Shown in pieces: positions 1,417 to 59,616 of a stretch of DNA of 64,000 nucleotides. Positions within the stretch are counted from its first letter, which is position 1; the number at the start of each line of letters is the position of its first letter. The position numbers and the translations under genes are program-made. The notes beneath the pieces were generated by a model that did no database searches, had not been told where the DNA came from, and was given only the letters and a program-made list of their open reading frames with translations. Origin of the DNA: Chitinivibrionia bacterium (lineage in GTDB: Bacteria > Fibrobacterota > Chitinivibrionia > Chitinivibrionales > Chitinivibrionaceae); assembly GCA_009779925.1 (NCBI GenBank), contig WRAZ01000002.1, positions 62,001-126,000 on the forward strand. Reading direction: 5' to 3'.

Positions 1417-4017
1417 ATCAATATTTCAATATCTCAAACAGGCGTATTTCAGGTGCTTCTTCCCGAACTTGTCGGCGATGAACTGCTTGATTCTGTCGCG
1501 TTGGAAGTAAAAGTTAAAGCGCTTTCTTCATCAGGCAAACATTTCGTTGCGATCGACTTATCGCCGCTCGACTATATTTACTCGGATTCCATAAATAAGT
1601 TTATCGGAATGAATCGCTTACTTCTATCAAGCAACGGGCGGCTTGTTCTTGTTGCGCCTCACGATAAAGTTTTTGAAATTTTAACACGGGCAGGCGTTGC
1701 CAAACAAATAAAAATAGTTCGTTCTCCCGACGAATTGCACGCGCTTTCGGATTACCTTTTGGAAGCAAATCCCGGACTGAGAGCAGGAACACAGCAAAAA
1801 ACCGAGCCGCAAAAGGAAGAAATCGCGCCATCCGTTGTCGAAAAAGAAATAGACGACTTCTCGGATTTGAGGCAAATTCTTTCGGACACGCTGACAATAG
1901 GCGAAGATTTACCCAAGCAAAGCAACACTTTACAAACTCCAAGCCCCAAGCCGACATCTGATATTGTGCCGGAAAGCGAGGCTTTTGATACCGAATTTGA
2001 AACAGAGCCCGATACAGAGGTTGCACCAATTCCAAGTTTTGAGACAGGACTTGAATTAGAACTCGAACAAGCTATCGACGAAGAACCAACAGCAAAAACC
2101 ACCCCTGAACCGACTGCAAGCGCGATTTTTGAAGAAACTTTCGATGATTTATTTATTGAAGAACCGACCGCCCCCAAACCAAGCGAAACAGATTTTGAAC
2201 TCGCAGACGAAATGGTTGCGGAAAAAATCGAACAAGATATAGAGCCAATAGATGAAATTTCCATAGAAATGCCCGACATAGACATAGAAATACCTGTAGA
2301 AGCGCCGAAAGCCGCCCCTGTCGTCGAGCAGGAAATCGTGATTGAAGAACCTAAAACAACACCTGCACCAATACCGACGTCGGAGCCAATACAAGAAATA
2401 GACTTAGACTTAGGCTTGGACATTGAAATTCCGCAACCCGAACCGAAAAAACAGCCAAGCAACGTCGCACCGACACCGCCTCCACCACCGCCGCCTGCGC
2501 CGAAACCACAGCTGACAACGTCGCCGCTACCTGCAGAAATAGCATTGAAAGCTGTTCCCGCACCAAAACCGAGCGCATTTGACGATGACGACGATTTTGA
2601 ATACGAGGAAAAACGTAAAAAAGGAAGCGGTCTTAAAGTTGTTCTTGTGCTTATTTTGTTGCTGATAATTGTTGCATTGGGCATTTTGGGCGGAGTGCTT
2701 ACAGGACGCATAAATTTATCCGACGAGTTGCTGAATAAAATAGGTTTGCAAAGATACGACGCACAAGTACAGCAAGTTTTACCGAATGAAAATATCGAAA
2801 TAATAACCGAAACAGAAATTGTACCTACAGAAATTCCCGTTGCGCCTGCTCCTGAACCTGAGCCAACACCTGACCCCGTTCCTGTCTTTGCACCGACACC
2901 GCCGCCCGCACCTGCACCCGCGGCAAGACCTGCAACGCCTGCGGCTCCCGCAAGACAGCAAGCACAACCGCAAAGACAACAAGCGCAAAACTCAATACGA
3001 ATTACCACACAACCTGCAGGCGCGCAAATTTTCATAAACGACAACTTTTCAGGCAGGACGCCTCATACAGTTGCTGTAAGAGACTTTCCTCGCGGCAACG
3101 TTGTTATTCGCGCAAGATTAGACGGCTACAGAGAACACGAATGGCGTATTAACAATAACGGCGGCGCCCTGCAAGATTTAACCGTGAGCTTGCAAAGACG
3201 AGCGGGACAGCAAACACAACAACAGCCGACGCCGCAACCACAGCAACAAGCTACTCCGCAAGCACAGCAAAATCAACAACAACAGCGACAAGCGGAACAA
3301 GAACGTTTGGCAAGAGAAGTAGCGGAACGCGACAGATTAGCGCGTGAACAAATGGCAAGAGACCAAGCCGTACGCGACCAAGCGGAAAGAGATCGTCTTG
3401 CACGCGAGCAAACCGCGAGAGACCAACAGGAGCGAGACAGATTGGCTCGGGAGCAAGCAGAACGCGATAGATTAGCTCGGGAACAACAAGCAAGAGAACA
3501 GGCAGCCCGCGACCAAGCAGAGAGAGACAGATTAACGCGTGAACAAGCGGCAAGAGACCAAGCTGAGCGCGACAGACTGGCTCGCGAACAAGCGGCGAGA
3601 GACCAAGCGGAAAGAGAACGTTTGGCACGTGAGCAAGCCGTAAGAGACCAACAGGCAAGAGAAGAAGCCGCACGCCTTCAAGCAGAACGCGACAGAGTAG
3701 CTCGGGAACAGGCGGAACGCGACAGATTGGCGCGCGAGCAAGCGGAACGTGAGCGTTTAGCGCGTGAACAGGCAGAGCGCGAACGTTTGGAGGCAGAACG
3801 CTTGGCGGCGCAAGAAGCAACGATTTTCTTCAATTCTCAGCCGTCCAACGCCGAAATTTTCCATAACGGAGTTTCTGTCGGCAGAACAGGCGTCGCTCCC
3901 ATAACTGTCAGACCGGGCGAGCATACTTTTGAGTTCAGAAGAGACGATTTAACGGGAACTTGGACAGGTCGATTGCGCGAAGGCAGAAACCCTGCGCAAA
4001 TGATACGTCTTCAATAA
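1417..4017 (+). CDS. STAS - transmembrane - PEGA - coiled coil - PEGA-like protein; probable non-ATG start
   Basis: A protein of about 866 residues. Order: an amino-terminal STAS-like (anti-anti-sigma) domain of about 110 residues; a long acidic, Pro/Glu-rich linker; one membrane segment (VVLVLILLLIIVALGILGG, about residue 410); a Pro/Ala-rich stretch; a PEGA domain (ITTQPAGAQIFINDNFSGRT, about 530-600); a Gln-rich linker; about 160 residues of Arg/Glu/Gln-rich repeats (ERDRLAREQ) that should form a long coiled coil; and a second PEGA-like unit at the end. The first ATG/GTG/TTG in frame is GTG 1453, which has no ribosome site and would cut off the first STAS strand. A strong AAGGAGG (1406-1412) instead precedes ATC at 1417, so I place the start there; ATT 1423 is the alternative. 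PEGA domains are usually extracytoplasmic. Function unknown; a cytoplasm-to-envelope scaffold is a guess. Confidence 0.75.
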   Translation: MNISISQTGVFQVLLPELVGDELLDSVALEVKVKALSSSGKHFVAIDLSPLDYIYSDSINKFIGMNRLLLSSNGRLVLVAPHDKVFEILTRAGVAKQIKIVRSPDELHALSDYLLEANPGLRAGTQQKTEPQKEEIAPSVVEKEIDDFSDLRQILSDTLTIGEDLPKQSNTLQTPSPKPTSDIVPESEAFDTEFETEPDTEVAPIPSFETGLELELEQAIDEEPTAKTTPEPTASAIFEETFDDLFIEEPTAPKPSETDFELADEMVAEKIEQDIEPIDEISIEMPDIDIEIPVEAPKAAPVVEQEIVIEEPKTTPAPIPTSEPIQEIDLDLGLDIEIPQPEPKKQPSNVAPTPPPPPPPAPKPQLTTSPLPAEIALKAVPAPKPSAFDDDDDFEYEEKRKKGSGLKVVLVLILLLIIVALGILGGVLTGRINLSDELLNKIGLQRYDAQVQQVLPNENIEIITETEIVPTEIPVAPAPEPEPTPDPVPVFAPTPPPAPAPAARPATPAAPARQQAQPQRQQAQNSIRITTQPAGAQIFINDNFSGRTPHTVAVRDFPRGNVVIRARLDGYREHEWRINNNGGALQDLTVSLQRRAGQQTQQQPTPQPQQQATPQAQQNQQQQRQAEQERLAREVAERDRLAREQMARDQAVRDQAERDRLAREQTARDQQERDRLAREQAERDRLAREQQAREQAARDQAERDRLTREQAARDQAERDRLAREQAARDQAERERLAREQAVRDQQAREEAARLQAERDRVAREQAERDRLAREQAERERLAREQAERERLEAERLAAQEATIFFNSQPSNAEIFHNGVSVGRTGVAPITVRPGEHTFEFRRDDLTGTWTGRLREGRNPAQMIRLQ

Positions 4018-33064: not shown

Positions 33065-33302
33065 GATAATGTATTTTGTGGGCGCGACGAATTGAATAAT
33101 GAGATTTTTGTTCTCATTATTTGTTGTTTATTTTTGATAGTATTGAATCGATTGACGAATAGTCCTTAGTGGCTGTTCTGTCTGTCGGTCGATTCGGTAT
33201 TAAACCAAGAACGAACATTATTCAATTTGTCGCAAAATTGTGAATTTTTCGGCAGAACAGCCTTTTGCTGTTTCTGTTTTAACTTTTATAAGAGGTTGTT
33301 TT
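33065..33302 (+). ncRNA. Structured 5' leader RNA, copy A (novel candidate cis-regulator)
   Basis: A promoter-like TAATGTATTTTGTG (33068-33080) is followed at once by stem P1: GCGACGAATTGAATAATG (33084-33101) with 33216-33233, 18 bp. Inside is P2 (33138-33156 with 33184-33202, 19 pairs including G-U), then P3 (ATAGTC 33159-33164 with GGCTGT 33171-33176), a 6-nt loop and a 7-nt bulge TCTGTCT. Downstream, CAGAACAGCC (33253-33262) can form hairpin P4 with 33267-33276, followed by U-rich sequence, or pair instead with GGCTGTTCTG (33171-33180). The element matches copy B at 49455 in structure, lengths and downstream sequence. It runs to the ribosome site of the GLUG gene. Confidence 0.75.
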
Positions 33303-35672
33303 ATGGGCAGATTTATTAAGATTTTAGCGGCGGTAATGTTTGTTGCGAGTGTGGTATGCGGACAGATTGATTGGTCTGCAAATAGAATAACAATATCGAC
33401 AGCCGAAGAATTACACGAATTTCGAGACACGGTAAACGCAGGAAGAAATTTTGCAGGACAGACGGTTTTGTTGCTAAATGACATTGACCTTAACGGAAAT
33501 CAGGGAAATCAATGGTTGCCGATTGGACCGGGCAATTGGCATAGCACAGGATTTCAAGGCGTGTTTAATGGCAATGGCTATTCTGTAGAAGGAGTGTTTA
33601 TAAACCAACCGGGAAAAGAATTTCAGGGATTCTTCGGAGTAATTGGGCAAAACGCAACAGTAATGAATATAGGTGTTTGTGTTAATATTACGGCAAGCCG
33701 ATGGGTTGGTGGATTGGCAGCGATAAATTCCGGCACAATTGAGAATAGTTATGTTGTAGGTAATGTATCAGGAATACCAACATCTGAAACTACTGCATTG
33801 GCAGTCGGTGGATTAGTAGGCGATAATTATTTTGGAATAATTAAAAACAGTTGGGTAGGGGCAAACATTAAAGGTTTCCGTTCTGTAGGCGGAATAGTAG
33901 GCGGAAACCTAGGTAATGCTACAATTATTAATTCATACGCTATTGGAAATGTAGAAGGCGAGGAACTCGTTGGTGGATTAGTAGGCGATTTTAACACAAT
34001 AGGCACTATCACCAATTCGTTCTCTCTTTCAGGAGAAGCGCCACATTGGATTGGAAGGATTGCTTCAAATGATGGTTTCAGGTCAATGAACCAACTTCGC
34101 CAACAATCCACGTTCACCGATTGGTGCTTTTACACCATCTGGAACATCGATGAAAACATAAACAACGGTTTTCCGTTTTTGCATCGGAGGACTAAACTCC
34201 CTGAAAATGCAATACAAAAAATTGAAACTCAAATTTTCACAAATTCTCCGATTACTCCCGGTATTGTAGTAAAAGACGGTGAAACTGTTTTGCGACCTGA
34301 TATAGATTATGAAATCATTGGGCACAGAGGCAACACTAACATTGGAAAAGCATTTATAATTGTGAGAGGCAAAGGCGATTTTTCAGGAACGATAGAAGCA
34401 CCATTCGGGATTGCTCCGGAGGGTGCTATATTATTAGATGTTCAGTGGTGCAATGAAGTTGAATTTGTATTTAATGGTGCTCCGCAATCTCCTACAGCAA
34501 GTATTGCCGTTAACCCAAATAACAACGATGTTTTTGTCGTTCATATAAGCGGAGCGCGAACAAATGTCGGACAAGGGCAAGCAAGAGCAAGTTTGGCAGA
34601 TGGGTACAGCGCGCTTTATAGGTTGCGATATTATACAAGAAATTTTGATATACTTCCAAAAGTGCTTACTGTCGATTGGGATACAAACACTGCAATAATT
34701 TTCAATAGACAGGCACAAGTTCCGAATGCAACCGCAAGAGACGAAGAGCTCGATATTTATATTCAACTTGATATTTTTCACAACCTCAACCGTATTATGG
34801 CAAACAATATTAACGTAGGAGAATATTCTGTCGTGGCAATGATACGCCAAGACAACCGAGATTTTCACATAAATTACAGATTAAAGAAAGAAGATGTCGA
34901 ACGCACTTATGAAATTGAGCACCGTCCGATTACCATTTTACTTGAAGCCGACCAAAACGCAGGTGTAAATTCAATATCAGGAGGCGCAGAAAAAGATACC
35001 ATCGTTGTTATTCCCAGCTTATTTGCCGATTCGAACAACCTTAAAAATATAATTCTCGGCTTGGTTGATTTTGACAATTTTGTGGGCGACGACGACATAA
35101 GCGTTTTCGGCTCCGCGCGCCCCACGGTAAAAATTATAGACCCCGAAGCCGAAATAGAGGAATCGTCTCGCTTCGGACGTTCGGACGACCTTGTAAGATA
35201 TCGATTATATCTGCTGAGAATAGAAACTGAGGGTATGTTTGCAGAAAACTACCAAATCGGAGCAACGGAGTTTTTTATAAGAACGGAAGAGTTTCTTCCA
35301 AACTTTATTCGCCAAAATACCTCGCGCGATAGCAGATACGGCATTCTCCTTGAAAACACAATCGTATCGGATTTTGCGAGGATTTCGGTAATCACCCCCG
35401 AACAGGCAACGGTGAATTTGGCGATTTTCGATAATTTGGGCAATGTTGTGTTTTCGGCGGACGGTGTAGGGGCGGGGTTTGCCCGCCCTGAAAACAGAAC
35501 GAACGGCGATTTGGGCGGGCAGACCCCGCCCCTACAAAACGCCATCGTCTGGAATTTAACCAACCAATCAGGCAGATTTGTCGGCAATGGTACGTATTTA
35601 ATTATCGTCGAAGCAACCGGTATCAGCGGGCGAAGATTCACCTATTCCGCGCGACTTGGAGTGAGTAGATAA
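33303..35672 (+). CDS. Secreted GLUG-repeat protein with C-terminal sorting-like domain
   Basis: 789 aa from ATG 33303 (AGAGGTTGTTTT upstream). Signal peptide (IKILAAVMFVASVVCGQ). Residues about 20-300 are GLUG-type repeats (VGGLVGDNYFGIIKNSWV, then VGGIVGGNLGNATIINSYA), as in beta-helical adhesins. A middle region of beta-rich units follows, with a C-terminal ~90-residue domain (VIWNLTNQ..GTYLIIVEA..YSARLGVSR) like the FlgD/sorting-type ends of Fibrobacter secreted proteins. A palindromic repeat (35466-35535) encodes GVGAGFARP..GGQTPPLQN in that domain. Paralogue of the gene at 59635. Surface adhesion is an inference. Confidence 0.8.
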   Translation: MGRFIKILAAVMFVASVVCGQIDWSANRITISTAEELHEFRDTVNAGRNFAGQTVLLLNDIDLNGNQGNQWLPIGPGNWHSTGFQGVFNGNGYSVEGVFINQPGKEFQGFFGVIGQNATVMNIGVCVNITASRWVGGLAAINSGTIENSYVVGNVSGIPTSETTALAVGGLVGDNYFGIIKNSWVGANIKGFRSVGGIVGGNLGNATIINSYAIGNVEGEELVGGLVGDFNTIGTITNSFSLSGEAPHWIGRIASNDGFRSMNQLRQQSTFTDWCFYTIWNIDENINNGFPFLHRRTKLPENAIQKIETQIFTNSPITPGIVVKDGETVLRPDIDYEIIGHRGNTNIGKAFIIVRGKGDFSGTIEAPFGIAPEGAILLDVQWCNEVEFVFNGAPQSPTASIAVNPNNNDVFVVHISGARTNVGQGQARASLADGYSALYRLRYYTRNFDILPKVLTVDWDTNTAIIFNRQAQVPNATARDEELDIYIQLDIFHNLNRIMANNINVGEYSVVAMIRQDNRDFHINYRLKKEDVERTYEIEHRPITILLEADQNAGVNSISGGAEKDTIVVIPSLFADSNNLKNIILGLVDFDNFVGDDDISVFGSARPTVKIIDPEAEIEESSRFGRSDDLVRYRLYLLRIETEGMFAENYQIGATEFFIRTEEFLPNFIRQNTSRDSRYGILLENTIVSDFARISVITPEQATVNLAIFDNLGNVVFSADGVGAGFARPENRTNGDLGGQTPPLQNAIVWNLTNQSGRFVGNGTYLIIVEATGISGRRFTYSARLGVSR
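35466..35535. repeat. Inverted repeat (GGGGCGGGGTTT family) inside the GLUG gene
   Basis: Arms begin GTAGGGGCGGGGTTTGCCCG and end CGGGCAGACCCCGCCCCTAC around a 24-bp centre; translated in frame. Confidence 0.9.
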
Positions 35673-39995: not shown

Positions 39996-41909
39996 TTACC
40001 TCAAAAACCGCTTGCCGATTTCTGCTAGTCCAAGCTTTGAAAAAGTTGGTCTTCCGTGGGGGCAGATGTGGGGGTTTTTGGTTGAAAAAAGGGCGGTTAA
40101 TAAGGCGTTCATTTCTTCGGTTGTCAGGGATTTGCCGAATTTTATTGCCGCGCCGCAGGCGTAGGAGGCGGCGAAATGGCGGTGAACGGAGGAAAGGATT
40201 GCGGAGTTGTTTTCTTTTAAAAATTGCTCTATCATATCTTCTATCGCGTCTTTCAGTTGGCTTTCGTATTTAAAATCCGAGGGCATTGAATATACGGCGA
40301 CCGTGTTTTGTCCGAAGTCTTTGATGTCGAAACCTGCTTTGGAGAAAAACTCGTTTACGGACAAAAGCGCCTCTTTTTCGTATGGTTTCAGTTCCATTGT
40401 TATTGGGAAAAGGAGCGATTGGCTTTCTATGCCGACGTCCATTGCGTCGAGAATTTTTTCGTATAAAATTCGTTCGTGGGCGGCGTGTTGGTCAATGAAA
40501 AGAAGCCCGTCCGAAACCGAAACTGCGATGTATCTGCTGTGAACCTGAAAACAACTTACCGAGTCTAAAGCGTTTTTGTCTATGCCCATTCCGAGCAATG
40601 GCGTTTCTTTTTCCTCCGCCGAAATTTTATCTAAAAAAGATATGGACATTTGCGTTGGTTTTTCGGGCGTTTCGCTGAATTTTGTGTTTGTAAATAACTC
40701 GTATTTTCCGTTTTTTTCTTCGACGGCAAATCTTTGCGGGATGTTTTGGGTGTAAGAGTAATTTGTGGTGGCTGAACCTGTCGAAACCGTCGGCATTGTT
40801 GAACGTAGGGGCGTATTGCATACGCCCGGATTACCGTCGTCAATGTTTTTTTCAGGGCGTATGCAATACGCCCCTACAGCGGCATTTTGGCAAGTCTCCA
40901 ATTCCGTTAAAACAGTACGGAAAATGAACGAAAAAAGCGCTCGTTCGTCGTCGAATTTTATCATTTGTTTGGTGGGGTGGACGTTTACGTCGATTTTGGA
41001 CGGCTCTATATCCAAAAAACAGAACCACGAGGGCTTGTTTCCGTAGGCGGACACGAAGCGCGAAAAGCTTTCGCGAATAGCCATTGAAACCGAGTTATTG
41101 TCGATTTTTCGCAGGTTTACATATAAATTTTGGTATTTTGGCTTGGGTTTTGCCTGCGACGGCGAGCAAATGTAGATTTCGGCGGACATTTCGGCTGTTT
41201 CGTTGCGGCAATAAATTAAATCTTGGGCGAATTCCGTGCCTGCGAGTTGCGAAATTCTTACTCTGTGGTCTTTTGCCGCGGGAATGTCGTAGATTTTTTT
41301 TCCGTCGGCGATACAGGTAAAATGAATTGTCGGAAACGCTATAAAAACTTGCTCGACGGTTGTTAAAATCGATAATCTTTCGCTTTTTTCACTCTTTAAG
41401 AATTTTTTTCGCGCGGGAAGGTTAAAAAATAAGTCCAAACACTCTACCGTTGTGCCTTTTACGTGAGCAATCGGCTCTATCTCGGCGGTTGCGGTGGTTG
41501 AGCCTGTCGAAACCGCCGAAGCCCCGCCATTAACCGATATTTTGTAGCCCGCGCCGTCTTCGGTTGTGGAGGACGAAAGCGAAAATTTGCTTGCGCTCGC
41601 GATACTTGCCAACGCCTCGCCGCGAAATCCCATTGTGGAGACGGAATACAGGTCTTCGGCGGCGGTTATTTTGCTTGTTGCGTGAGGGGTTATCGCTAAG
41701 GTCAGCTGGTCTTTTTCGATACCGCAACCGTTGTCCGTAATTTTTATCCGCGAAATTCCGCCGTTGTCGAAAATTACCGTTATTTTGTCGGCGCCGCTGT
41801 CTATGGAGTTTTCCAAGAGCTCTTTAACGATAGACGACGGGCGATCGATCACCTCGCCCGCCGCTATTTGTTCTACGACATTTTTTGCCAGAAGTTTTAT
41901 TTGGGGCAT
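39996..41909 (-). CDS. mutL: DNA mismatch repair protein MutL, with repeat-encoded inserts
   Basis: 637 aa from ATG 41909, which overlaps the upstream stop (TAATG). GHKL ATPase motifs: ELLENSIDSGAD (about 33), DNGCGI, GFRGEALASIASAS (about 93). The C-terminal endonuclease motif DQHAAHERILYE and CPHGRPTFSK are intact, so it should be a nicking MutL. The flexible linker holds GAYCIRPEKN and PGVCNTPLRST from a 73-bp palindrome (40805-40877) and VSTGSATT from another family (40767-40788). A third insert, VSTGSTTA, sits in the ATPase domain (41492-41515). Confidence 0.96.
   Translation of the reverse strand: MPQIKLLAKNVVEQIAAGEVIDRPSSIVKELLENSIDSGADKITVIFDNGGISRIKITDNGCGIEKDQLTLAITPHATSKITAAEDLYSVSTMGFRGEALASIASASKFSLSSSTTEDGAGYKISVNGGASAVSTGSTTATAEIEPIAHVKGTTVECLDLFFNLPARKKFLKSEKSERLSILTTVEQVFIAFPTIHFTCIADGKKIYDIPAAKDHRVRISQLAGTEFAQDLIYCRNETAEMSAEIYICSPSQAKPKPKYQNLYVNLRKIDNNSVSMAIRESFSRFVSAYGNKPSWFCFLDIEPSKIDVNVHPTKQMIKFDDERALFSFIFRTVLTELETCQNAAVGAYCIRPEKNIDDGNPGVCNTPLRSTMPTVSTGSATTNYSYTQNIPQRFAVEEKNGKYELFTNTKFSETPEKPTQMSISFLDKISAEEKETPLLGMGIDKNALDSVSCFQVHSRYIAVSVSDGLLFIDQHAAHERILYEKILDAMDVGIESQSLLFPITMELKPYEKEALLSVNEFFSKAGFDIKDFGQNTVAVYSMPSDFKYESQLKDAIEDMIEQFLKENNSAILSSVHRHFAASYACGAAIKFGKSLTTEEMNALLTALFSTKNPHICPHGRPTFSKLGLAEIGKRFLR
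40767..40788. repeat. GGTGGCTGAGCCTGTCGAA-family repeat in mutL linker
   Basis: GGTGGCTGAACCTGTCGAAA; the family recurs at 41492, 42164, 42230 and 46236. Confidence 0.8.
40805..40877. repeat. Inverted repeat (GGGGCGTATTGC family) in mutL linker
   Basis: Arms GTAGGGGCGTATTGCATACG.. and ..GCAATACGCCCCTAC around a 27-bp centre. The same family lies after tilS at 59534. Confidence 0.92.
41492..41515. repeat. GGTGGCTGAGCCTGTCGAA-family repeat in mutL ATPase domain
   Basis: CGGTGGTTGAGCCTGTCGAA, read in frame as VSTGSTT on the minus strand. Confidence 0.75.
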
Positions 41910-45198: not shown

Positions 45199-46233
45199 AT
45201 GCCTATGAAAACACTAACCCTCCCCAAAACCATCGACAGAGCTTGGGTCGAGCAGGAAGGACAGAGCATTCTTTCCGAGAAGTCGGCGAGCGTTGTTTTT
45301 TGCGGCGATGTGCGGAGTTTTGACTCTGCGGGACGGGCGTTTTTTAGGTTGCTTGCGAAAAGAAAAAACTTGAAAATCTCTGATCTTTCCGATGAAATTA
45401 CGCGCGCAATGCAACCAAGCCGCAATGTGCAAAACGAAAGTCCGCGCAAAAAAAAGAACTTTTTTGAAGACGTCGGCGACAAAACCGTAAATGCGTATAA
45501 CGAATTTTGTTCGGCGCTTGTTATTTTGGTGGAAATGGTCTATTGGGGGACTTTCGGGCTTCTTCAAAAACGGGATTTTCGCAAAGGGGTTTTGGGCGAG
45601 CAGATGTACAATTTGGGCTACGGCGCGCTCGGAATAACGTTTCTGCTCACGTTCTTAATAGGAATAGCGATTTCGGTGCAATCGGCAATTCAACTGCGGC
45701 AATTCGGCGCGGACATTTTCCTCATAATGCTTGTGGTTATAGGAATGATACGCGAAATCGGTCCTCTTATGGCGGCAATAATTTTAGCGGGACGAACAGG
45801 CTCGGCGACCACCGCAGAAATCGCCACAATGAAAGTCCAAGAAGAAATAGACGCACTGAAAACTATGGGACTTAACCCGATACAGTTTGTTGTTGTGCCG
45901 AAGTTTTGGGCGATTTCCATAACAATGCCGCTTTTGAGTATTATGGCGACCATCGCGGGAATTTTGGGCGGTTTTGCCGTGGCGTATATCTATTTAGGGC
46001 TTTCGATAGACATAATTATGACAGAATTTGCTAAAAATATTATAGTTCGCGACGTAGTTATTTCGCTGATAAAATCGCTTGTGTTCTCGTGGTTAATTTT
46101 GTGGATAGGAGCGTATTACGGCTTAAGCGTTCGCGGCGGCGCGGAAGAAGTCGGCAAAGCGACAACAAAATCGGTCGTGACGGCAATTTTTGTGATAGTC
46201 ATAACGGCGGCTTTGTTCTCGTTTGTTTATTAA
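45199..46233 (+). CDS. mlaE: MlaE-type ABC transporter permease with N-terminal STAS-like domain
   Basis: 344 aa. About 85 amino-terminal residues resemble a STAS/MlaB domain (SVVFCGDVRSFDSAGRAFFR), followed by the MlaE permease with five or six membrane helices and the family stretches GREIGPLMAAIILAGRTGSA-like (IREIGPLMAAIILAGRTGS, about 185), EIDALKTMGLNPIQF and the C-terminal GAEEVGKATTKSVV. Moves phospholipids across the envelope with MlaF and MlaD, which are not adjacent. The start is ATG 45199 or 45205; both sit just after a promoter core. Confidence 0.92.
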   Translation: MPMKTLTLPKTIDRAWVEQEGQSILSEKSASVVFCGDVRSFDSAGRAFFRLLAKRKNLKISDLSDEITRAMQPSRNVQNESPRKKKNFFEDVGDKTVNAYNEFCSALVILVEMVYWGTFGLLQKRDFRKGVLGEQMYNLGYGALGITFLLTFLIGIAISVQSAIQLRQFGADIFLIMLVVIGMIREIGPLMAAIILAGRTGSATTAEIATMKVQEEIDALKTMGLNPIQFVVVPKFWAISITMPLLSIMATIAGILGGFAVAYIYLGLSIDIIMTEFAKNIIVRDVVISLIKSLVFSWLILWIGAYYGLSVRGGAEEVGKATTKSVVTAIFVIVITAALFSFVY

Positions 46234-46235
46234 AT

Positions 46236-46257
46236 GGTGGCTGAGCCTGTCGAAGCC
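46236..46257. repeat. GGTGGCTGAGCCTGTCGAA-family repeat, intergenic single copy
   Basis: GGTGGCTGAGCCTGTCGAAG between the convergent mlaE and antiporter genes. Confidence 0.8.
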
Positions 46258-47229
46258 TTAACCGTTATACAAAACAATCATATAAGCCGCAAAAACGCCC
46301 AGAAGCAAAACGCCTTCCCAGCGATTTATTCTGCCTTTTGAAAGCGGAAGCATAACTAAAAGCAACGCAAGCGAAACGCCTAAAACCCATATCATATCGG
46401 AAAAAAACATAGATTGGTTGCTGATATTCAGCGGGCGAATAATTGCAGTTATCCCCAAAACTCCCGCGATATTGAAAAAATTTGAGCCGATAATATTGCC
46501 GATGGAAAGGTCTGTTTCTTTGCGGAATGCCGCTATTAACGACGATATTAGTTCGGGCATACTTGTGCCGACCGCGACAATGGACGTGGCGATAATGCGC
46601 TCGCTTACTCCCCATTGCACCGCGATTTGCTTAGCGCCTTCGACAAACCATCCCGAACTGAAATACAGCCCGCCGACAGCCGCCAAAATCATTAAAACCG
46701 CTATGTAGGGCTTCATTGTGGGGGGCTCGATTTCTTTTGCGGCGGCGCTTCTGCGCGATTTTATTACGGAAAAAGTAGTATAACTTATCAAAATAAGCAC
46801 AAAACAAAGTCCCGCCCAAAAACTTATAACGCCGTTTAGTCCAAAAATAAGCATTAAAATTGTCGCCAAAGCCATTATCGAATAATCAAAAGCGATTGAC
46901 CTGTTATTTATGGAAATCGGGCAAATTATTACAACCAAAGCCAAAATACACGCAATATTTGCAATGTTTGAGCCGATAACGTTTCCGAGCACTATGTCGT
47001 GGGCGTTGTTAAGAGCCGCGCCGATACTTATGAACATTTCGGGGGCGCTCGTTCCGTAGGCGACAATGGTAAGTCCAACCACAAGCGTGCTTATTTTAAG
47101 GTGGCGAGCGATTTGAACACTGCCCGATACCAGCAAATTTCCGCTGAAAATCAATAATCCAAGCCCTGCCGCGAGGTAAATGTATGGAAAAAAAACAACA
47201 AATTCGCGCGGGAAAAATTGCTCGAGCAT
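46258..47229 (-). CDS. CaCA-family Na+/Ca2+ antiporter (YrbG-like)
   Basis: 323 aa, about 10 membrane segments in two inverted halves. Both alpha-repeat motifs are present: VAYGTSAPEMFISIGAAL (about 57) and VAVGTSMPELISSLIAAF (about 213), each followed by GNVIGSNIANI / GNIIGSNFFNI. Exports cations at the inner membrane. Start 2 nt after the htpX stop. Last gene of a lemA-htpX-antiporter operon. Confidence 0.92.
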   Translation of the reverse strand: MLEQFFPREFVVFFPYIYLAAGLGLLIFSGNLLVSGSVQIARHLKISTLVVGLTIVAYGTSAPEMFISIGAALNNAHDIVLGNVIGSNIANIACILALVVIICPISINNRSIAFDYSIMALATILMLIFGLNGVISFWAGLCFVLILISYTTFSVIKSRRSAAAKEIEPPTMKPYIAVLMILAAVGGLYFSSGWFVEGAKQIAVQWGVSERIIATSIVAVGTSMPELISSLIAAFRKETDLSIGNIIGSNFFNIAGVLGITAIIRPLNISNQSMFFSDMIWVLGVSLALLLVMLPLSKGRINRWEGVLLLGVFAAYMIVLYNG

Positions 47230-48875: not shown

Positions 48876-48945
48876 GAAAAAACAGCAAAAGTCCACTGTT
48901 TTCAGAAAAATACCCCATCACGCCACAAACAAATATTATTTTCTC
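48876..48945. repeat. Direct repeat, copy 1, left of the nucleotidyltransferase gene
   Basis: About 70 bp, similar to 49398-49466 (shared blocks AAAAAACAGCAAAAG and CCACAAACAAATATTATTTT). It ends in a promoter-like AATATTATTTT. Confidence 0.75.
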
Positions 48946-49061
48946 TATGAAGCGCAGATAATCTAAAAAAAAGGGAAAATATGACGCAAGAAGAAAATAG
49001 CAAAAGACCTTACAAGCAATGTAGCGCAAAACATTTTAACCAAAACCGAGGAGTTGCAAAA

Positions 49062-49376
49062 ATGGACAAAAGAGAAGATATTATTTCCATAGCCCAAAAA
49101 TATTTGGAATTAGTAAAGGCGAGTTCTTTTCCTATGCAAATAGAACGGGCGTATCTTTTTGGCTCGTTCGCTAAAGGTTGTCCTCACAAAGACAGCGATA
49201 TTGATATTGCTTTAGTGGTAAATGAATGGAAAGGAAACTATTTTGAAGTAGTTCCGCCGATTTGGGGATTATGCAGAAATGTTGATTTCAGAATAGAGCC
49301 GCATATAATAGTTCCCGAAGAAGATTACGCCGATTTTTTGCCTGAAATACAACGGACAGGCGTTGAATTAGTGTAG
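49062..49376 (+). CDS. MNT-type minimal nucleotidyltransferase domain protein
   Basis: 104 aa from ATG 49062, 8 nt after GAGGAG; the longer frame from 48981 has a weak ribosome site. The pol-beta-type core YLFGSFAKGCPHKDSDIDIALV carries the G-S and D-x-D residues. Such proteins often form the antitoxin half of HEPN-MNT toxin systems, but no HEPN gene is adjacent. Flanked by direct repeats, so it may be a transferred cassette. Confidence 0.82.
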   Translation: MDKREDIISIAQKYLELVKASSFPMQIERAYLFGSFAKGCPHKDSDIDIALVVNEWKGNYFEVVPPIWGLCRNVDFRIEPHIIVPEEDYADFLPEIQRTGVELV

Positions 49377-49397: not shown

Positions 49398-49466
49398 CAA
49401 AAAACAGCAAAAGCCCGCTATTTTTCAAAAACTTTCCCCACTCCACCACAAACAAATATTATTTTA
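49398..49466. repeat. Direct repeat, copy 2, right of the nucleotidyltransferase gene
   Basis: Partner of 48876-48945, roughly three quarters identical by eye. Its end supplies the promoter core of leader RNA copy B. Confidence 0.75.
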
Positions 49467-49699
49467 CCCTCGCAACAAATAGTGAAATGTGGGATTTTAT
49501 TCTTGCATTTCATTGTAGGTATTTTTTCTATTATGTCAATCGACAAACAACCTTTATTGGTTGTTCTGTTAGTCGGTTGATATTGTTTAATATATCTATT
49601 ATGACACATTTCACTATTTGTTGCAAAATATGAATTATTTGGCAGAACAGCCTTTCGAGCCGTTTTGTCTTAACTTTTAATTTTGCAGGAGGTTGCTTT
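49455..49699 (+). ncRNA. Structured 5' leader RNA, copy B (novel candidate cis-regulator)
   Basis: Promoter-like AATATTATTTTACC (49455-49468), then stem P1, a perfect 20-bp pairing of 49472-49491 (GCAACAAATAGTGAAATGTG) with 49605-49624. Inside is P2 (TCAATCGAC 49536-49544 with GTCGGTTGA 49572-49580), P3 (ACAACC 49547-49552 with GGTTGT 49559-49564), a 6-nt loop TTTATT and a 7-nt bulge TCTGTTA. The downstream CAGAACAGCC (49643-49652) can pair with GGTTGTTCTG (49559-49568) or form P4 with GCCGTTTTG. P2 and P3 differ from copy A at several pairs, yet pairing is kept. Ends at AGGAGG before ATG 49700. Confidence 0.75.
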
Positions 49700-50662
49700 A
49701 TGGGCAAGGTTATTCGAGTGTTGGCGGTAATATTAATTGTCGCTTGTGGAGTGTGGGCGCAACAGCAACATAGACCTTTGGTCGCCGTGTTGCCGTTTGA
49801 GGTAAGAACAGGGGTTAGCCAGCAAGATGCAGCAACCATAACCGAAATATTTATCAACGAATTGCAAGTGCAAGCAACGGGAAGAATTAGAATTCTCACT
49901 CGTGCAAGTGCTGATTTCGCTAGAATTTTGGAGGAAATGCAATTTCAAAGGACTGATATGGCAAGTGAAGAAAATGCCGCCCAAATTGGAAGACGGGCAG
50001 GCGCTCAATTTGTTATCAGCGGGCAATTCAGTAGATTAGGGCAAAATATTGTTTGGATAGCGAGAATGGTAAATGTTGAAACAGGAGAGGTGGCTTCAAG
50101 CGCTCGTGAAACAATAAAAAATATAGACGAAGTTTTAGGAAAAATGCCGAGTTTTAGTAAGCAAATTGTAAGCAATCTTGGAACAGCGCCGACAACGCGA
50201 CCCACGTCATCTCATCAAATTATTGGAAAATGGAGGGCAGTATCGGGAAGTAGCGTGTTAGTAATAGAATTTCAAGAAGGAGGCAGAATTCGCGTTGAGC
50301 GATTTGGATATCTAAGACAAACTGGATGGCGGAGTAAAAGAGGACGACTTAAAAATTCTGATTTAAAACGTTGGCAATACGATGCAGATGCTATAGTAGG
50401 AAGCTATATGCTTAATGAACCTAATCGCATAAGCATTTTTTTAGATTTAACAGGAGTGGATTGGAGAAATGAGGCGCGTCCGTCGCCGTTAGAAATTCGA
50501 TTTAATGGAACATATATTTTTGATTCAAGGTCTGAGTTCCGCCTCATTTCCAGTAATAATATCAGAGGTATTCCTTGTATGAATGATTTAAGTCAAACGA
50601 ATATTTCAAATAGATGGCGTAGTTTCAGCTGTAATTACATTAGTTTTGTAAGAGTTCAATAA
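49700..50662 (+). CDS. CsgG-like periplasmic/secreted protein (paralogue 1)
   Basis: 320 aa; ATG 49700, 8 nt after AGGAGG. Signal peptide (IRVLAVILIVACGVWAQ). Residues about 28-150 follow the CsgG/LpoB-type fold: VAVLPFEV, ATITEIFINELQ, RIRILTRASADFARILEEMQ, AGAQFVISGQFSRLGQNI and ARMVNVETGEVASSAR. A further ~160-residue beta-rich C-terminal domain (IIGKWRAVSGSSVLVIEFQE) resembles lipocalin-like units. Function unknown; related to the next gene. It is preceded by leader RNA copy B. Confidence 0.75.
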   Translation: MGKVIRVLAVILIVACGVWAQQQHRPLVAVLPFEVRTGVSQQDAATITEIFINELQVQATGRIRILTRASADFARILEEMQFQRTDMASEENAAQIGRRAGAQFVISGQFSRLGQNIVWIARMVNVETGEVASSARETIKNIDEVLGKMPSFSKQIVSNLGTAPTTRPTSSHQIIGKWRAVSGSSVLVIEFQEGGRIRVERFGYLRQTGWRSKRGRLKNSDLKRWQYDADAIVGSYMLNEPNRISIFLDLTGVDWRNEARPSPLEIRFNGTYIFDSRSEFRLISSNNIRGIPCMNDLSQTNISNRWRSFSCNYISFVRVQ

Positions 50663-59511: not shown

Positions 59512-59533
59512 ATTTCTTGCGAAATCAACGTTT

Positions 59534-59616
59534 GGGCGTATTGCATACGCCCAAATAACCGACAGAAATAAGCCAAATAACCGACAGAAATAAGGGCGTA
59601 TGCAATACGCCCCTAC
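59534..59616. repeat. Inverted repeat (GGGGCGTATTGC family) after tilS
   Basis: Arms GGGCGTATTGCATACGCCC (59534-59552) and GGGCGTATGCAATACGCCCC (from 59594) around a tandem pair of a 22-bp unit (AAATAACCGACAGAAATAAG..). Confidence 0.92.

Follow-up and report, generated by a model that had tools for sequence, protein, structure and literature searches.

In Escherichia coli, the mRNA of the outer-membrane protein gene ompA starts at a 5'-terminal stabilising stem in its leader. The leader RNA that we describe here resembles stems of this type in having a stem at the mRNA start; such stems are not known to have a conserved long-range pairing such as helix A:B of the present leader or to belong to a genome-wide family of copies. 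Co-transcriptional strand exchange is an established riboswitch mechanism (PMC9756952, PMC7707468), and the Termite-flg (RF01729) and Termite-leu (RF01730) motifs are structured RNAs reported only from termite hindgut metagenomes (PMC2864571). With P1-closed riboswitches that contain a long-range pseudoknot, the leader shares its 5' position, closing stem and multi-helix junction, as well as a predicted loop-to-3'-tail pairing and predicted mutually exclusive helices. It differs from them in its abundance (~60 copies in one genome, before genes for diverse surface proteins), in the great length of A:B (12 bp) and in the lack of an Rfam match; in addition, a canonical terminator and a ribosome-site block were looked for in the leader and not found.

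The Termite-flg and Termite-leu motifs are structured RNAs like the leader, which matches neither model: both were among the Rfam models scanned, and the leader scored below the gathering cut-off for each. At the gathering threshold, Rfam 15 returned only two tRNAs from the whole window (the 64,000-nucleotide stretch of Chitinivibrionia bacterium DNA that was analysed, contig WRAZ01000002.1, positions 62,001 to 126,000), both located elsewhere in it, and no family for 20 leader loci. This agrees with an earlier note on this DNA, which could assign the element to no known riboswitch class. Permissive Rfam scans gave sub-threshold chance matches only, the exception being one contig on which the end of a 16S rRNA was matched. 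The c-di-GMP-I riboswitch (RF01051) had no match in the genome, and control genomes likewise had none. Within the open-access literature, no leader of such a kind was found in Fibrobacterota.

The window contains two copies of the leader, copy A and copy B, with a mean column identity of ~77% over leader and flanks (a two-row measure in which unrelated columns count half). When the source genome (G000; a draft assembly of 2.5 Mb in 88 contigs) was queried by BLAST with either window copy, more than 40 matches were obtained. A covariance model, R1, with 181 positions and 30 pairs, was then built from 23 copies, with a structure that was defined manually on the basis of stems located by an independent stem finder. 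Using R1, for which E-values rest on a short calibration, we identified 61 copies in the source genome at E<=0.01 (best score, 148 bits) and 27 copies in the sole congener compared (G001), a draft Fibrobacterota/Chitinivibrionia metagenome-assembled genome; the two genomes represent one genus. The family is therefore much larger than the two copies of the earlier note implied, and the further copies to which that note had looked for support exist, 59 of them in the same genome and 27 in the congener.

Across 166 other Fibrobacterota genomes, no R1 match was found at E<=0.01 under strict filters, and in three other family members permissive filters gave two matches, with chance-level scores only. 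With zero matches across the phylum (166 genomes) and chance-level matches in the family, a spread of the leader to other genera was rejected. An exact A-N-B pattern of its two most conserved strands gave 24 single matches over GTDB, one of which was real and is the congener itself: WRFX01000015.1, Chitinivibrionia bacterium isolate Mp193P3bin36 (Fibrobacterota, Chitinivibrionia in the NCBI taxonomy), where we take Mp193 to denote a termite gut sample. The other GTDB singletons were not recognised by R1, and three matches on viral contigs were not the element. In these data, the leader class thus appears limited to one Chitinivibrionia genus.

Elsewhere in the window, the open reading frame at 1609-4017 contains charged coiled-coil-like repeats (3288-3800; 11 copies of ~58 nt), and short palindromic (GGGCGTATTGCATACGCCC) and GTGGCTGAGCCTGTCGAAACC repeats are present at 40802-40836 and 59527-59561, and at 40763-40792, 41489-41518 and 46232-46261.

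Both window copies lie on the forward strand between a promoter-like sequence and a gene. Upstream of copy A, a -10-like hexamer, TATTTT, is located at 33072-33077 (the consensus upstream of the copies is AAATATTATTTT), and the same hexamer precedes copy B at 49460-49465, where it was recognised by sequence and fixed spacing. In 75 of 81 copies, such a TATTTT/TATATT sequence precedes model position 1 by a fixed offset of 9 nt. Taking TATTTT as the -10 hexamer would place the predicted transcript start on the first base of the closing stem P1 (33084 in copy A and 49472 in copy B). At the other end, Shine-Dalgarno sequences were found at 33291-33295 (AGAGG, copy A) and 49687-49692 (AGGAGG, copy B). 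Copy A is followed by the gene for a 789-aa GLUG-motif protein (33303-35672; Pfam PF07581, E=3.7e-7) with a hydrophobic, signal-like N-terminus, MGRFIKILAAVMFVASVVCGQ, and copy B by the gene for a 320-aa LpoB/CsgG-like protein (49700-50662; Pfam PF13036, E=1.4e-5), which also has a signal-like N-terminus.

A same-strand open reading frame of at least 60 aa, with an ATG start and a good ribosome site, begins no more than 150 nt downstream in 60 of the 79 testable copies; a divergent one was found in 16 of the 79. The earlier note would take further copies before secreted-protein genes as support, and for most copies the downstream gene indeed encodes a hydrophobic N-terminus: by a simple, crude hydropathy rule for signal peptides, a strongly hydrophobic N-terminus is encoded by 50 of 61 leader genes versus 12 of 34 other genes in the window (p=1e-5). 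About one-fifth of the downstream open reading frames have no signal-like N-terminus. Among the Pfam domains of the downstream proteins are GLUG, CotH, LRR/BspA, OmpA and fn3, none of them in more than a few members, and exceptions include FRG, GIY-YIG and DUF1643 proteins. A few leaders (at L151, L161, L183 and L199) precede defence- or nuclease-like genes instead of genes for secreted proteins; these were assigned by Pfam in the case of FRG and by eye from DUF1016-like and restriction-like N-termini.

Two observations concern promoters and genes near leaders. The promoter-like stretch at 49422-49465, which precedes copy B, is duplicated at 48899-48942 with 82% identity; this duplicate stands immediately upstream of the gene for an MntA-like nucleotidyltransferase (48981-49376), whose leader is short and lacks the RNA element. 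At locus L058 (start of contig C31 of the source genome), the 8-nt repeat CTTCGGGA recurs in a long tract just upstream of a gene without the leader RNA, and the ribosome site and signal peptide of this gene are like those of leader genes.

The predicted fold of the leader is more stable than that of shuffled sequences. The minimum free energies (MFEs) of copies A and B were -79.2 kcal/mol (z = -7.8) and -76.3 kcal/mol (z = -8.3), respectively, and no dinucleotide-shuffled sequence folded as well; in the 81-copy set, the mean z was -8.2 and 80 of 81 copies were below -3. In this fold, P1 encloses two elements, the hairpin P1a and the long arm P2, at whose tip lies P3. The P1 arms, placed by the stem finder, are 33084-33101 (the 5' arm, with covariation) and 33216-33233 in copy A (18 bp), and 49472-49491 and 49605-49624 in copy B (20 bp); P1 spans 150 nt in copy A and 153 nt in copy B. 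P1a, read from the sequence in copy A (33099-33117), where it shares bases with the end of the P1 5' arm, was taken from the alignment in copy B (49489-49506). The P2 sides in the MFE structure of copy A are 33122-33156, of variable sequence, and 33183-33215.

Covariation was assessed in A3, an alignment to R1 of the best 81 copies of the two genomes; A3 leans towards R1, and the P1 arms had been found beforehand without it by the stem finder. The 12 pairs of the P1 core were 99.7% paired, with compensatory changes at 12 of 12, and covariation over the 18-pair P1 reached 0.704, compared with 0.175 for shuffled and at most 0.104 for slid controls. In P1a, 91% of positions were paired, each of the six pairs showed double changes, and G-U pairs were numerous. 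P2 varied in sequence and length, yet 73 of 77 predicted folds retained 10 bp or more of it. These results bear out the closing stem, the common layout with common distances and the compensatory pairing that the earlier note had seen between the two copies, the double changes lying far above the shuffled and slid controls. The stems of its fold are present, with P1a and the long-range A:B pairing having been overlooked; for P3 in copy A (8 bp), its 6-nt loop stands, and the bulge is a 5-nt UGUCU, not 7 nt. The element shows covariation in a shared fold and lies between a predicted promoter and a gene on the same strand, as expected of a structured cis-acting leader; judging from sequence, it is close to certain to be a structured leader RNA. 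The copies, the covariation and the negative Rfam searches all favour the functional RNA leader proposed earlier.

The most conserved sequences of the leader are strand A (GGYTGTTCTGYC), formed by the 3' arm of P3 and the bulge, and strand B (GGCRGRRCARCC), located ~15 nt past P1. They are complementary over 12 bp, and this holds in nearly all copies; in the window, strand A is GGCTGTTCTGTC (33171-33182) in copy A and GGTTGTTCTGTT (49559-49570) in copy B, and strand B is GGCAGAACAGCC in both (33251-33262 and 49641-49652). The 81 A/B pairs, two of them from divergent copies that were added manually, were paired at a mean of 11.79 of 12 positions, versus 11.55 (sd 0.03) when partners were shuffled, and none of 2,000 shuffles scored as high; for the 52 distinct combinations, the values were 11.67 and 11.32 (0 of 2,000). 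Shuffled partners also pair well because most of the remaining variation is wobble. True compensations included UA to AU (at L134), GC to AU in three copies and CG to UA in two; the copy at L198, like that at L134, combines compensatory changes in A and B, and two copies showed a coupled change in which A begins with GTCTGTGC and B ends in GCRCAGAC. The mean A:B energy in the source genome was -18.9 kcal/mol, an approximate value, as for all pseudoknot energies, in which the closing cost of the pseudoknot is left out.

Two other possibilities were considered and rejected. If A:B complementarity were a by-product of two duplicated hairpins (D-A and B-C, where D is the 5' arm of P3 and C the 3' arm of a downstream hairpin), A and B should not change together where C does not, and they do: C is unchanged in the L134 copy, and several copies of the congener have a different C or none. 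The other possibility was that B is carried by a dedicated trans-acting RNA; the B motif occurs 81 times in the genome, versus 3 for the reversed control, and all but ~8 occurrences lie inside leader copies. At L183 (G000:C6:57000-62500), two divergent leader copies stand back to back before lipoprotein-like and DUF1016-like genes; strand A is lost in one, and A and B are co-changed in the other (GGGGATTCTGCC with GGCAGAATACCC).

Each strand of A:B also has another predicted partner. Strand D (33157-33164 in copy A and 49545-49552 in copy B, from the MFE structure) pairs with A in the tip hairpin, for which 22 double-change cells were counted and none of 500 shuffles did as well. Strand C (33267-33276 in copy A, from the nested MFE structure and energies, and 49660-49669 in copy B, from energies) pairs with B, and B:C is part of the nested MFE structure in 52 of 57 copies of the source genome, where its energy was -10.3 kcal/mol versus -5.7 kcal/mol with C scrambled. 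On paper, D:A, A:B and B:C compete, and the sum of P3 (-6.5 kcal/mol) and B:C, about -16.9 kcal/mol, is close to the predicted energy of A:B before any pseudoknot penalty. In the congener, B:C is weak (-6.7 versus -5.2 kcal/mol with C scrambled), so a three-way exchange may not be general. The last four bases of A were about half unpaired in predicted ensembles (0.48-0.60), which would make them a soft toehold.

The region between C and the start codon varies. In a subset of the leaders of the source genome, such as L142, L154, L172 and L165, a second hairpin, GCCG...CGGC, directly precedes a GAAAGG-type ribosome site, and in L159, L170 and several congener copies GGCAA...TTTTTGCAT takes its place. 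Copies with a poor C (L186, L187, L191, L193, L195, L196 and L201 of the congener and L177 of the source genome) often have AATTCATA in the tail, the reverse complement of the conserved P1-to-B linker TATGAATT; a possible alternative closing stem could form between them.

Sequence comparison shows a structured element located at the predicted 5' end, in which A:B is a conserved long-range helix and A has conserved alternative partners; that the RNA switches, and by what trigger and to what output, we infer. On balance we lean towards reading the family as cis-acting leader RNAs of a new class, built around a strand-exchange core, with which about 60 mRNAs would begin, most of them encoding secreted or surface proteins. 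The main rival, which we consider possible though unlikely, is a static protective leader: a stem at the mRNA start and a permanent A:B pseudoknot would shield the 5' end from decay and make surface-protein mRNAs long-lived, with no switching and no ligand. The predicted start on the first base of P1, the invariant promoter spacing, the high stability of P1, the retention of A:B even where C is not kept and the diversity of the downstream genes would all suit such a leader. However, A:D, and in the source genome also B:C, are kept, for which a static fold has no need, and a protective stem alone would not require conserved sequences in A, B, P1a and the linker.

It is improbable that the leader is a transcription attenuator, with B:C acting as an intrinsic terminator and A:B as its antiterminator. 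The B:C hairpin of the source genome, together with a T-rich tail that had been called terminator-like in copy A, would fit this arrangement, but the tail past the downstream hairpin is TTAACTTTT, with a conserved AA and T at only 43% of the first six bases, and B:C is weak in the congener; no U-tract of the canonical terminator kind was found after the hairpin. Even less probable is a translational riboswitch or thermometer of the classical form, in which B would sequester the ribosome site and A:B would free it. A GGTTG resembling A adjoins the ribosome site in many copies, but GTTG is present in only 19 of 44, and the pairing of B with its own ribosome site (-6.4 kcal/mol) was no better than chance (-5.9 kcal/mol with B scrambled). 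Many copies have long inverted repeats, as would a mobile palindrome or single-strand recombination site lying before genes by chance, but such a DNA-level element is the least credible of these readings, given that the arms differ in nearly every copy with pairing kept, that the promoter distance is fixed, that the strand is biased towards the downstream gene and that the frequent G-U pairs in P1a and A:B favour RNA over DNA pairing.

Under the strand-exchange reading, P1a, P2 and P3 would form first during transcription. Strand B would then emerge with its 5' end first, facing the 3' end of A. As long as P3 (D:A) holds, B would be free to pair with C; if B instead engaged the exposed 3' bases of A, it would displace D, form A:B and free C. 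A signal read at the P1/P1a/P2 junction, which may be a metabolite, a protein or the folding rate of the RNA, would set the balance between the two arrangements, and this balance would coordinate the regulon through translation or mRNA stability. Because the tail is not that of a canonical terminator and B pairs with the ribosome site no better than a scrambled B, the options that remain for the output are effects on translation or stability exerted via C, the linker or ribosome loading.

More tentatively, the leader may represent a new class of sensor RNA that has spread, within one genus, to about 60 promoters and through which the surface-protein repertoire would form one RNA-controlled regulon governed by a built-in strand-displacement switch. 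The 81 natural variants, with their compensatory changes, are a ready-made mutant library for RNA strand exchange, and the leader family offers a concrete entry point to gene regulation in a phylum that has hardly been studied. If the exchange model is true, one class of RNA would coordinate which secreted and surface proteins a Fibrobacterota lineage makes.
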